The translations under genes were made by a program, and so were the position numbers. From Phycisphaerae bacterium (GTDB lineage: Bacteria; Planctomycetota; Phycisphaerae; UBA1845), in contig JANQQK010000007.1 of assembly GCA_028289375.1 (NCBI GenBank), positions 1 through 64,000 on the forward strand: 64,000 nucleotides of DNA, given 5' to 3'. Within the stretch, counting starts at the first letter, position 1. The number at the start of each line of letters is the position of its first letter. The notes under the pieces were generated by a model. The model was not told the DNA's origin. It ran no database searches and was given only the letters and a program-made list of their open reading frames with translations. This document shows positions 53,200 through 63,550 of this stretch, one piece after another.

Positions 53200-55017
53200 A
53201 TGCTTGACAACCCGCTAATGCTGATATCCATCATCGTGGTCGGCGGTATTTTCGCGCAGTGGTTGTCGTGGCGCATCGGCGTGCCATCGATTCTGCTGCT
53301 GCTGCTTTCCGGTGTCGTCTTCGGACCGATCACAGGCCTGATCGATCCCGACGCCCTTTTCGGCGATCTCATTCAACCCGTCGTTGCTATATCCGTCGGC
53401 TTGATTCTCTATGAGGGCGGACTGACGCTGAAGATCTCCGATCTGCCCAAGGTCGGCACGGTCGTGCGCAACCTCGTCAGCGTTGGCGCGCTGGCAACGT
53501 GGATCGTCTCCGCATTGGCCGCCAATCTGATTCTCGGTTTGTCCGCCGCGCTGTCCGCACTTCTGGGAGCCGTCCTCGTCGTCACAGGCCCGACCGTCAT
53601 CACGCCGCTCCTGCGACACATCCGGCCCAAGGGCGCCGTCGGTTCGATCCTGAAATGGGAAGGCATCGTCATCGACCCGATCGGCGCGACGCTCACCATC
53701 CTCGTTTTCGAAGCCATCAAAATCGGCAGCACCACCGAAGCCACCGGCCACATCGTCGCCGCCGTGCTCAAGACGATCTTCATCGGCGGCGGATTCGGGT
53801 TCGTTGCAGCCGCCATACTCGTGCTGCTTCTCCAACGGTTCTGGATTCCGGACTACCTGCAGAACGCCGTATCGCTCATGCTCGTCATTGCCGCGTTCAC
53901 CGGCTCCAACTTGCTGCAACACGAATCGGGACTGCTGGCCGCGACGGTCATGGGGTTCGTGCTGGCCAACCAAAAGCGCGTCGACGTCGAGGACATTGTG
54001 GAGTTCAAGGAGAATCTGCAGGTCCTCCTGATTTCCATGCTCTTCGTCGTCCTCGCCGCCCGCCTGGACATCGCCGATCTGAAAGCCATCGCCCTGCCGG
54101 GGACAATATTCGTCGCCGTGTTGATTCTCGTGGCGCGACCTGTCGGCGTTTGGTTGTCGACGATGGGGTCCGCCCTTTCCAAGCCCGAACGCATCTTCAT
54201 GGCCCTACTCGCACCGCGCGGCATCGTTGCGGCTGCGGTGGCATCCGTGCTCGCGCTGGAGCTGGAGCATCAGGGCATGGAAGGCGCCCGTACCATCGTG
54301 GCGGCCACCTTCATCACGATCATCCTCACCGTCGCGTTTTACGGATTGGCTGCGCCCGGCATCGCCCGCAAGCTCGGCATCGCAGAGTCTGATCCACAGG
54401 GCATCCTGTTTGCCGGTGCGAGCGAGTGGGTCCAGGAAATTGCCCAACTGCTGCAGAAGCAGGGCCTCCGCGTCCTGCTGGTCGACAGCAATTACGACAA
54501 CATTCAAAAGGCACGGATGTCCGGCCTGCCCGCCGTTCGCCGCAGCATCCTGGCCGAGCACCTTCTGGACATGCTCGAATTGGCCGGCATCGGTCGCATC
54601 CTCGCGGTCACGCCCAACGACTGGGTCAACGTGCTCGCCCTTCAACGCTTCAACCGCGTGTTCGGTCGGGTCAACTGTTACCAACTCGTCTGGCGACCAA
54701 AACAGAAGCAACTCGAACGTCACGAGCACCTGCTGGGTCGTCCTCTCTTCAGCGAGAAGGTCAACGGTGCGAAGCTCTCACGCCTCAAGGAACGCGAGTT
54801 CGTCGCCAAAGCAACCAAGATTACCAAGGACTTCACGTACGCCAATTTCCTAGACAAGTACGATGAAAACGTCGTCCCACTGTTCCTCATGGACGAGCAG
54901 AAGAAGCTTCGCATCCTCACCACCGACCAACCCATCGAACCGCAACCTGGTCAGACCATTCTGGCGTTCGTGCAAAGTACATCACCGCCACCCGACCCTA
55001 CCCCGGACGTCGATTGA
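53200..55017 (+). CDS. CPA1 cation:proton antiporter with C-terminal RCK-like domain
   Basis: The 605-residue protein has 12 or so hydrophobic helices in the first 390 residues with the family's VVTGPTVITPLLRHIRPKG and FGPITGLIDPD blocks. After LGIAESDPQGILFAGASEWV there is a cytoplasmic domain with a Rossmann-like RVLLVDSNYDNIQKARMSGL (TrkA-N/RCK type) and a final TrkA-C-like part. It probably exchanges Na+ or K+ for H+ and is gated by nucleotide. GGATCAGCACC precedes the ATG. It may be co-transcribed with the M48 protease gene 11 nt upstream. Confidence 0.88.
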   Translation: MLDNPLMLISIIVVGGIFAQWLSWRIGVPSILLLLLSGVVFGPITGLIDPDALFGDLIQPVVAISVGLILYEGGLTLKISDLPKVGTVVRNLVSVGALATWIVSALAANLILGLSAALSALLGAVLVVTGPTVITPLLRHIRPKGAVGSILKWEGIVIDPIGATLTILVFEAIKIGSTTEATGHIVAAVLKTIFIGGGFGFVAAAILVLLLQRFWIPDYLQNAVSLMLVIAAFTGSNLLQHESGLLAATVMGFVLANQKRVDVEDIVEFKENLQVLLISMLFVVLAARLDIADLKAIALPGTIFVAVLILVARPVGVWLSTMGSALSKPERIFMALLAPRGIVAAAVASVLALELEHQGMEGARTIVAATFITIILTVAFYGLAAPGIARKLGIAESDPQGILFAGASEWVQEIAQLLQKQGLRVLLVDSNYDNIQKARMSGLPAVRRSILAEHLLDMLELAGIGRILAVTPNDWVNVLALQRFNRVFGRVNCYQLVWRPKQKQLERHEHLLGRPLFSEKVNGAKLSRLKEREFVAKATKITKDFTYANFLDKYDENVVPLFLMDEQKKLRILTTDQPIEPQPGQTILAFVQSTSPPPDPTPDVD

Positions 55018-55297
55018 CCCGCGCTTCCCATCAGGTAGACCGAACTCCAGACAATGACTGAGGCCTGGGCGCCGGAAGAACCGGACAGTCCTCATGGCGA
55101 ACGGGGTCTCGCCGTCCTTTCCCACCAGCGTTCGCGCGACTTCGGGACGACGAGTAGGTTGCATTCGGCCCGATCAGACCGATCCGCCGCCCCACGGACG
55201 AACTTTGACGATCCACAATATCTCGCATCGACGGAATAAGATCGGGACTCGAAGGGTTGTCCGCCATAGGATCACACCAACCTCGGAGCAACCCGGC
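55018..55297 (+). other. Intergenic region before the DUF3179 gene
   Basis: This 280-bp stretch has no convincing coding frame or terminator. A GGAG at 55283-55286, 11 nt before the ATG at 55298, is a possible ribosome site. It presumably carries the promoter of the DUF3179 gene, but no box is convincing. Confidence 0.4.
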
Positions 55298-56107
55298 ATG
55301 ACCGACACGACCCCGATTCCAACCGACCCGAACGCCAAACCCGCCGAGCCGTTGCGCCTTGTCATGTGGCTTGTCGTTGTGGGCGTGTTCGGTTTCGCGC
55401 TGATCAACTTTGGCGTTGGCGTCTTCGATGAATCTGGAAGAGATACAACCCGGCGAGCAATCACCTACCACCGCAATGGCGATCAACTCTATCTGTGGGC
55501 CACCGGTGCACGCGACTTTGACGACCCTTCCTCCGAGTGGTTCGATCTCACCGGCTCCCCGCTGCCAATCGAAAACTTCCAGTACGGCATCGGCAAGGAC
55601 GAAATTCCATCAATTGACGACCCGGTATTCGTCCGCCCGGACGACGAACGATTCGTCAGTTTCTGGACGAACGAGGGCGTTGACGACATCGGCGAATTGC
55701 AGGTGATCGGATATGAGCATGGCGGCGTCGCCCGGGCCTATCCACGCGCGCTGCTTGATCGCCACGAACTGGTCAACGACACGGTCGGCGGCAAGCCGGT
55801 CACCGTCGGCTGGTGACCGCTTGTTGAACTGTCCGTGGTCTACGGACGCGAAATTGATGGTGAAACGGTGACTTTCGGTACGACGGGCTACACGTTCAAG
55901 AACACGTTCGTCCTCTACGACCGCAAGTCCAACGCCGTCTGGTACCCGCTCGACGACGAAGCCTTCAATGCCATCGGCCGATATCGCCACGGCGACCGCA
56001 TCCCCTTCCTCGCCAAACCAGCCGTCCAACCCTTGAGCGTGTGGCTCGCCGATCACCCCGGGTCGCTGGTCCTGCTCGACGATGCGTCCAATCTGGAGAA
56101 TCAGTAG
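55298..56107 (+). CDS. DUF3179 family protein, probable selenoprotein with in-frame TGA (Sec173)
   Basis: Read through one TGA (55814-55816, codon 173), this is a single 269-residue DUF3179 protein. It has an N-terminal membrane helix (LVMWLVVVGVFGFALINFGV). DEIPSIDDPVFV, VIGYEHGGVARAYPRALLDR and HELVNDTVGGKPVTVGW are the family landmarks. After TGA the same frame continues PLVELSVVYGREIDGETVTF and ends VWLADHPGSLVLLDD. The family's usual CPLC motif aligns its first Cys with the TGA; the second Cys is Val here. A 17-nt hairpin with apical GGTCT follows at 55831-55847. Codon use stays normal after the TGA, so decay is less likely than selenocysteine, though a nonsense mutation cannot be excluded. 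Confidence 0.7.
55814..55847 (+). promoter_or_regulatory. Candidate bacterial SECIS element at an in-frame TGA
   Basis: TGA (55814-55816) is followed after 14 nt by the hairpin GTCCGT-GGTCT-ACGGAC (55831-55847, six Watson-Crick pairs). The loop GGTCT starts 20 nt after the TGA; in E. coli fdhF the GGUCU loop starts about 18 nt after, as I recall. The base after TGA is C, also as in fdhF. The lower stem is weak (CGC 55818-55820 with GCG 55848-55850) and no bulged U is evident. Confidence 0.6.
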
Positions 56108-59855: not shown

Positions 59856-61487
<1,632 letters not shown>

Positions 61488-61574: not shown

Positions 61575-61910
61575 ATGGCCACTGCGACAGCAGCAAAACC
61601 AAAGAAGAAGAACGCTTCCAAGATCAACTTCCGCCCGCTCGATGACCGTCTCCTGATCCGTCAGGCCGACGCCGAAGAGAAGACCCAGGGCGGCATCATC
61701 CTTCCCGACGCAGCCCGCGAGAAGCCACAGCAGGGTACGGTCGTCGCCTGCGGTCCGGGCAAGTTGCTCGACAGCGGCAACCGCGGCGAGATGAGCGTCA
61801 AGGTTGGCGACGAAGTGTTCTACGGCAAGTATGCCGGCACCGAGATCGAGATCGACGGCGAGACATTCGTCGTCTGCCGTGAGAATGACCTGTTGGCTGT
61901 GGTGGACTAG
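61575..61910 (+). CDS. groES: Co-chaperonin GroES with N-terminal extension
   Basis: The 111-residue protein has the GroES core ([20 protein letters not shown] with mobile-loop [20 protein letters not shown], then [20 protein letters not shown]). It also has an N-terminal tail of about 17 residues rich in Lys and Ala ([19 protein letters not shown]) that most GroES lack. The mobile loop keeps the G-G-I-I/V-L motif that binds GroEL. A strong AAGGAG precedes the ATG. It sits between the two groEL genes. Confidence 0.97.
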
Positions 61911-61933: not shown

Positions 61934-63550
61934 ATGCCAAAGCAAATGATGTTCGGAAGCGACGCCCAGCAGGGTGTCCTTGAGGGCCTGACGAAGCTCG
62001 CCAACGCGGTCAAGGTGACGTTGGGTCCTGTGGGGCAGAATGTGCTGCTCCAGAAGTCGTTCGGCGCTCCGCGCGTGACGAAGGACGGTGTGACGGTGTC
62101 CAAGGACATCGAACTGCCCGATCCCTTCGAGAACATGGGCGCCAAGATGATCAACGAAGTTGCCAACAAGACCAGCGATCAGGTCGGCGACGGCACCACC
62201 ACCGCCACGGTTCTCGCGGAGGCGATCTACCGCGAAGGCTTGAAGCTGGTGACCGCCGGCGTGAACCCGATGGCGCTCAAGCGCGGCATCGACAAAGCCG
62301 TCGAAGCCGCCGTCAAGTCGATCGCCAATCAGTCGGTCAAGGTCAAGTCGACCTCCGATCTCGAGAAGGTCGCCACGATCAGTGCGAACGGTGATCAGAC
62401 CGTTGGCAAGCTGCTGAGCAAGGCGATGGAAGACGTCGGCGAGGAAGGCGTCGTTGAGATCGAAGAAGGCAAGGGAACGGACACGGAGAAGGAAGTCGTC
62501 GACGGCATGCAGTTCGACAAGGGCTACATCTCCCCATACTTCATGAACAACCCGTCCGATCTGACCTGCGTCCTCGAGAACCCGCAGATCCTGATTCACG
62601 AAAAGAAGATCTCGAACCTGCGCGACTTCATCCCGATGCTCGAATCGGTCGCATCGACAGGCAAGCCGTTCCTGATCATCGCCGAAGACGTCGAGGGCGA
62701 ATCGTTGGCGGCGTTGGTCGTCAACAAGCTTCGCGGTGTGCTCAACGTCTCAGCCGTCAAGGCGCCCGGTTTCGGCGACCGTCGCAAAGCCATGCTCGGT
62801 GACATCGCCACGATCACCGGCGGCAAGCTCATCAGCGAGGATCTCGGCATCAAGCTCGAGAGCGTGACCGCTTCCGACCTCGGGTCGGCCAAGAAGGTCA
62901 TCATCTCCAAGGACGCCACGACGATCATCCAGGGCGCCGGCAAGGCGGCTGACGTCAAGGCGCGTTGCGAGCAGATCCGCAAGCAGATCGAAGCCACGAC
63001 CAGCGACTACGATCGCGAGAAGCTCCAGGAACGTTTGGCCAAGCTGACCGGTGGCGTCGCCGTCATCCGCGTCGGTGGTTCCACTGAAATCGACGTCAAG
63101 GAAAAGAAGGACCTCGTCGACGACGCATTCCACGCAACCCGCGCTGCCCGCGAAGAGGGCATCGTTCCCGGTGGTGGCGTGGCATTGCTGCGTTCGATCG
63201 CCTCGGTCGAGAAGGCACGTACCAACGTCACCGGTGACGAAAAGCTCGGCTGCGACATCGTCGCCAAGGTGCTCCGTGCACCGGCTCGTCAGATTTGCAT
63301 CAACGCCGGCCTGGAAGGCGATGTCATCGTCGAGCAGATCCTCGAGAAGTCGGGATCGCATGGTTTTGATGCACGCAAGGGCGACTTCGTCGACATGGTG
63401 AAGTCGGGCATCGTCGATCCGGCGAAGGTTGTTCGCACGGCGCTTCAGTCGGCCGCCAGTGTTGCAGGCTTGATGCTGACGACGCAGGTGCTGATGACCG
63501 ACATCAAGGACAATGACAAGGACCACCCGATCGCCCACGCGATCCGCTAG
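61934..63550 (+). CDS. groEL: Chaperonin GroEL (copy 2, no GGM tail)
   Basis: The 538-residue protein is a second GroEL with intact ATP-site motifs ([55 protein letters not shown]) and [20 protein letters not shown]. It differs from copy 1 throughout and has an Arg instead of Val in RAAREEG. It ends [16 protein letters not shown] with no Gly-Met tail. It starts 23 nt after groES. It is likely a specialised or alternative ring subunit; whether it forms mixed rings is unknown. Confidence 0.97.

Follow-up and report, generated by a model that had tools for sequence, protein, structure and literature searches.

Gene and protein at the locus

The window, which is the whole 64,000-nucleotide stretch of DNA analysed here, comes from a draft Phycisphaerae assembly (4.99 Mb in 94 contigs, 99% complete) and contains a gene of the DUF3179 family. 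Its frame runs from an ATG start to a TAG and includes one in-frame TGA alone, at codon 173 (Table 1). A sequence-only reading had described the frame as intact around this codon, and this is borne out: there is a single in-frame TGA, and the Pfam match to DUF3179 (PF11376; E = 6.4e-31, residues 100-262) spans it, with a score of 108.3 bits, above the gathering threshold of 27. A genome search detects this one copy of the family, likewise with one TGA inside the match. The protein aligns from end to end with 30 TGA-containing homologues at 38-64% identity, while no NCBIfam model matches it and a sequence search of solved structures yields no relative (best E-value 0.73).

In the AF2 model of the protein (pLDDT 92), residue 173 lies at the end of a strand (residues 166-173). 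Read as selenocysteine (Sec), it is the sole thiol or selenol of a protein with no cysteines; the domain is also devoid of Cys besides Sec in 32 of 35 homologues. Residues invariant across 56 diverse DUF3179 members are A147, E157, N160, C/U173, P174, L175, G197, D208 and W215, and H156 and R209 are nearly invariant in the family. Several homologues have N-termini that resemble signal peptides or lipoboxes. Together with the N-terminal hydrophobic helix of the window protein, these suggest that the domain is probably located outside the cytoplasmic membrane.

Among about 50 DUF3179 loci, no neighbouring gene family recurs throughout, and the neighbourhoods mostly differ from one locus to another. 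An operon link for the Sec-containing genes was for that reason dropped, and no functional link is claimed with the adjacent Na+/H+ exchanger. Elsewhere in the window, two GroEL-type chaperonin open reading frames (ORFs; 59856-61487 and 61934-63550) are nearly adjacent, with a GroES-type ORF (61575-61910) between them.

Table 1. Features at and beside the DUF3179 locus, in window coordinates
Feature	Position	Strand	Remarks
Na+/H+ exchanger with TrkA-N domain, upstream neighbour	53200..55017	+	Also beside DUF3179 at sister locus L092
Candidate ribosome binding site CGGAG	55284..55288	+	9 nt 5' of the ATG; read from sequence
Predicted DUF3179 selenoprotein gene	55298..56107	+	269 residues including Sec; stop TAG 56105-56107
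Hydrophobic N-terminal helix (residues 17-46) that likely anchors the protein in the membrane	55346..55435	+	AF2 model, sequence hydrophobicity, homologue N-termini
TGA codon, residue 173, read as selenocysteine	55814..55816	+	Same-codon TGA in homologues, Cys in orthologues
bSECIS-like hairpin	55831..55847	+	Stem GTCCGT/ACGGAC, loop GGTCT, covariation

Conservation of the TGA codon and its alternation with cysteine

Across 397 searched genomes of the same class, DUF3179 is found in 147, and among the matches listed, TGA-containing forms occur in 28 genomes, most of which belong to the same family as the window genome. In each of the 36 TGA-bearing genes compared from this class sample, not counting the window's gene, the TGA falls at the aligned site (36/36), with 34 of UPL type and two of UPS type. 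In the 34 UPL-type relatives, the residues around the TGA follow the pattern [G/A][W/Y]-U-P-L. The two UPS-type genes, L053:968-1633 (minus strand) and L059, represent a second and shorter Sec-DUF3179 subfamily and have the motif SWUPSEQ and their own hairpin, CGATCGTGGTTCACGATCG, 3' of the TGA.

A separate scan of species genomes, in which some genomes from the class sample recur, gave 73 loci. According to the records, these derive from Phycisphaerae, other Planctomycetota, Sumerlaeota, Hydrogenedentota, Acidobacteriota, Nitrospirota and Desulfobacterales. The site codon is TGA in most of them and TGT or TGC in others. Among 59 distinct Sec sequences, the fourth residue of the motif varies (UPLA in 32, UPLV in 15, UPLD in seven, UPLS in four and UPLC in one), so that 58 of the 59 can be written as UPL[A/V/D/S]; the window protein has UPLV. 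A full-length Thermoanaerobaculales member, L162:5830-6771, has UPLC and a good hairpin, and fits the published UxxC motif.

The sequence-only reading had placed the TGA at the first Cys of a conserved CPLC site. Aligned relatives do have Cys at this position, and alternation between Cys and TGA is seen at codon 173 in the homologue alignment, but the Cys is not universal, as some long-type proteins have NPLC or SPLC instead. Close orthologues with Cys at the Sec site are L132, L138 and L151. The first two of these, from a Rhodothermaceae and a Gemmatimonadetes genome respectively, both read CPLAD and nest, with support of 100/100, in a clade of 24 rows that is otherwise Sec, a placement that reads as replacement of Sec by Cys. 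Three short-subfamily Cys homologues (L088, L089 and the second protein of L032) have AYCILADLGAVY (or AYCVLADLGAIY) at the Sec site and lack the second Cys. In eight long-type proteins (L037, L041, L042, L043, L045, L049, L090 and L091), the site is NPLC, SPLC or SPTC; the first Cys is absent and the second is kept.

The half of the gene that follows the TGA is conserved as protein in 35 homologues. Mean pN/pS values for the parts after and before the TGA are 0.44 and 0.51, indicating that both are under purifying selection to a similar degree.

The hairpin downstream of the TGA

A hairpin with a GGTCT loop, reported in the sequence-only reading as starting 20 nt after the TGA, is present as placed. 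Its stem pairs GTCCGT (55831-55836) with ACGGAC (55842-55847) around the loop at 55837-55841, and the loop start is 20 nt past the TGA. The published bSECIS model calls for a loop of 3-9 nt, a stem of 4-16 bp, a G in loop positions 1-2, a UGA-to-loop distance of 16-37 nt and a minimum free energy of at most -7.5 (PMC13188914). With a 5-nt loop that begins with G, a 6-bp stem, a spacing of 20 nt and a value of -10.6 kcal/mol, the window hairpin fits this model. Its single-sequence stability is not unusual compared with dinucleotide shuffles (z = -0.72).

Comparison among homologues is more informative. Over 35 aligned sequences, 99.6% of cells are paired, and 16 double changes are observed versus the 3.1 expected from shuffles. 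The usual stem is GTCCGT/ACGGAC, and compensatory versions include GGCTGT/ACAGCC in L066 and GGCCGT/ACGGCC in L073. Within the loop, G55837 and C55840 covary (GC, CG, AU and GU) around an invariant GU at 55838-55839, and the loop GU is found in all 59 distinct Sec sequences. All six stem pairs are present in 51 of these 59 sequences, versus none of 39 Cys-type homologues. Most of the eight Sec sequences that lack the full set in this register are distant members with the hairpin in a slightly shifted register. Synonymous constraint falls mainly at the stem, where Ser is encoded by TCC in 33/33 cases, Gly by GGA in 32/34 and Tyr by TAC in 20/20. On this comparative evidence, the hairpin at 55831-55847 is a SECIS element.

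Selenocysteine machinery in the genome

The genes that the sequence-only reading proposed to look for are all present, since the window genome encodes SelA, SelB, SelD and tRNA-Sec. The selA gene scores above its curated cut-off and is adjoined by selB, and the tRNA-Sec has the anticodon tca. The selD gene (G000:C46:5359-6282, L018) has an in-frame TGA of its own, and its product is thus probably a selenoprotein too. Co-occurrence across the class points the same way: selA is detected in 27 of the 28 genomes with a TGA-containing DUF3179 gene versus 152 of 397 overall (hypergeometric 2e-11, a value that ignores kinship between genomes). In the one such genome where selA was not found, G334, the assembly is a fragmented draft (88% complete, about 810 contigs).

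Decoding of the TGA

The TGA at 55814-55816 almost certainly encodes selenocysteine, given the TGA at the same site in relatives, the covariation of the hairpin, the Cys orthologues nested within the TGA clade, and the sel genes, together with the co-occurrence of selA and TGA-containing DUF3179 genes. That the codon is decoded in this way and that the product is a membrane-anchored DUF3179 selenoprotein is, taken jointly, also very probable. Mechanistically, SelB and Sec-tRNA-Sec, guided by the hairpin, would insert selenocysteine at the UGA. The proposal that this individual protein carries Sec at the first position of a CPLC-like site is thus supported by comparison. Each outcome named in the sequence-only reading as a refutation went the other way: the sel genes are there, relatives have Cys at the aligned site, and independent assemblies share the TGA. 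The open frame by itself proves little, because this GC-rich window has 15 TGAs with no fewer than 150 open codons on one side and 90 on the other. Frame and hairpin become decisive only through comparison, namely the TGA in 34 close relatives, the covariation of the hairpin and the constraint on synonymous sites.

Three other explanations for the codon can be weighed against this evidence. Although the source is a draft in 94 contigs and a single base change would turn the TGA into TGC or TGT, and hence the gene into an ordinary Cys-type DUF3179, a sequencing or assembly error is so improbable that we count it as already refuted: the identical TGA occurs independently in the sister genome (G077/L092), as it does in dozens of further assemblies, and TGA forms retain the hairpin whereas Cys forms lack it. 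Nor is the TGA at all likely to be a true stop, which would make this a truncated or decayed gene, or two separate genes with a possible ORF start at the GTG at 55835. The frequency of TGAs flanked by open frames in the window is compatible with such a stop; however, the downstream half is a conserved protein under purifying selection in 35 homologues, the Pfam domain runs across the TGA, and decay would not be expected to split a domain at one and the same residue everywhere, with an invariant P-L after it. Insertion of a different amino acid without selenium, through an altered code or plain read-through, is extremely improbable as well. TGA is an ordinary stop elsewhere in the genome (for example, in the gene at 53200-55017), a complete Sec system is encoded, and sense homologues carry Cys at the site.

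Fold

Structural alignment of the model gives Rieske proteins in all 29 of the best rows, with Z values from 7.3 to 3.9, and unrelated rows follow at 3.7. The best match has a Z of 7.3 over 98 residues (rmsd 3.7), although a Z below 8 may reflect a common arrangement. It could therefore be asked whether DUF3179 is a degenerate Rieske protein in which Sec173 replaces an iron-sulphur ligand, all the more as CPLC-x-S-x-x-F-D resembles the Rieske box II, C-P-x-H-x-x-x-F-D. We consider this highly unlikely. The aligned ranges put Sec173 near ferredoxin residue 30, away from what we take to be the cluster ligands near residues 45 and 64. The ligand motifs (C-x-H and C-x-x-H) are absent from the protein, in which Sec173 is the only residue of the Cys type and C-x-x-H does not occur. 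A Foldseek search of the PDB with the window model returns nothing below E = 0.4 (best 0.46), and hhalign of the DUF3179 profile against 28 Rieske domains from relatives gives a probability of 1%. Equating CPLC with box II was rejected on the aligned register and the hhalign result.

Possible activity

The literature on DUF3179 yielded no described activity. A membrane-anchored, exported-type envelope redox enzyme of the one-Sec type seems a reasonably likely assignment, as Sec173 is among the most conserved residues, lies at a strand end and is the sole thiol or selenol. In such an enzyme, the selenol of Sec173 would be oxidised by its substrate, either a peroxide or an oxidised thiol. With no Cys in the protein, an intrachain selenenyl-sulphide is impossible, so any redox cycle would depend on a thiol from outside, which would re-reduce oxidised Sec173 in place of a partner Cys within the protein.

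Six Cys-type DUF3179 genes of the class (L036, L038, L039, L044, L047 and L050) are single ORFs of 480-600 amino acids that include a peroxiredoxin-like domain, and Pfam confirmed an AhpC/TSA identity for that domain in 3/3 fusions tested. These fusions belong to the long-type Cys DUF3179 proteins and not to the short Sec subfamily. They suggest peroxide or thiol redox chemistry, and a peroxidase in particular may be put forward tentatively, though the odds are somewhat against it.

It may instead be that Sec is decoded as proposed but the selenol has a different role, in handling arsenic or metals in the cell envelope and not in peroxide or thiol redox chemistry. At six loci (L101, L106, L108, L115, L120 and L131), about 3 kb or less separates a Sec-DUF3179 gene from arsenosugar-biosynthesis genes, which include a TIGR04283 glycosyltransferase (directly adjacent in L101, L106 and L108), ArsS and ArsM-like genes. 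These loci are a minority, however; the window genome has no ArsS above the curated cut-off, the window locus has no such neighbour, and the peroxiredoxin fusions of the Cys paralogues also argue against a role in arsenic handling, which is unlikely overall. A broader picture, in which a widespread envelope-anchored one-Sec enzyme subfamily of Phycisphaerae and neighbouring phyla has a new sole-chalcogen Sec chemistry and serves arsenosugar metabolism in some lineages, is similarly speculative and would be a surprise.

Implications

Automatic annotation would split the window gene at the TGA. Comparison instead yields a secure collection of Sec-DUF3179 genes from several phyla and reveals a Sec-to-Cys switch within one clade, where the hairpin is lost as well. 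It also supplies a clean natural alignment of SECIS elements in which two loop bases covary on either side of an invariant GU. The one-Sec form also points to where DUF3179 activity should be looked for.

Comparison with known systems

The bSECIS of E. coli fdhF has an apical GGUCU loop, and the window hairpin resembles it as a short hairpin soon 3' of the UGA. The window stem, however, differs in sequence, has no bulged U and is a conserved stem in its own right with compensatory changes.

Cys-type DUF3179 proteins (CPLC, including the AhpC/TSA fusions) share the domain and the aligned active-site position with the window protein. They differ in their greater length (350-600 amino acids), in the absence of a SECIS hairpin and in usually having two Cys (CPLC) or the second only (NPLC, SPLC). 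The Cys pattern of the long-type NPLC, SPLC and SPTC proteins is the reverse of that in the Sec subfamily.

DUF3179 (PF11376) is already listed as a prokaryotic selenoprotein family with the motif UxxC/T in two reviews (PMC9312934, PMC13188914), both of which credit the work of Zhang and Gladyshev 2007 on the Olavius algarvensis symbiont. The suggestion in the sequence-only reading that this is a new selenoprotein therefore fails at the level of the family. Neither review mentions Planctomycetes or describes the Phycisphaerae proteins and the hairpin in their genes; both listings also lack the UPL[A/V/D/S] subfamily and any sign of how widespread it is in Phycisphaerae. Compared with the motif listed in the reviews, the UPLV of the window protein differs at the fourth residue and so does not conform to UxxC/T. 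It shares with the published DUF3179 selenoprotein the Pfam family and Sec at the first position of a CxxC-like site, and is a well-supported member of this known selenoprotein family.
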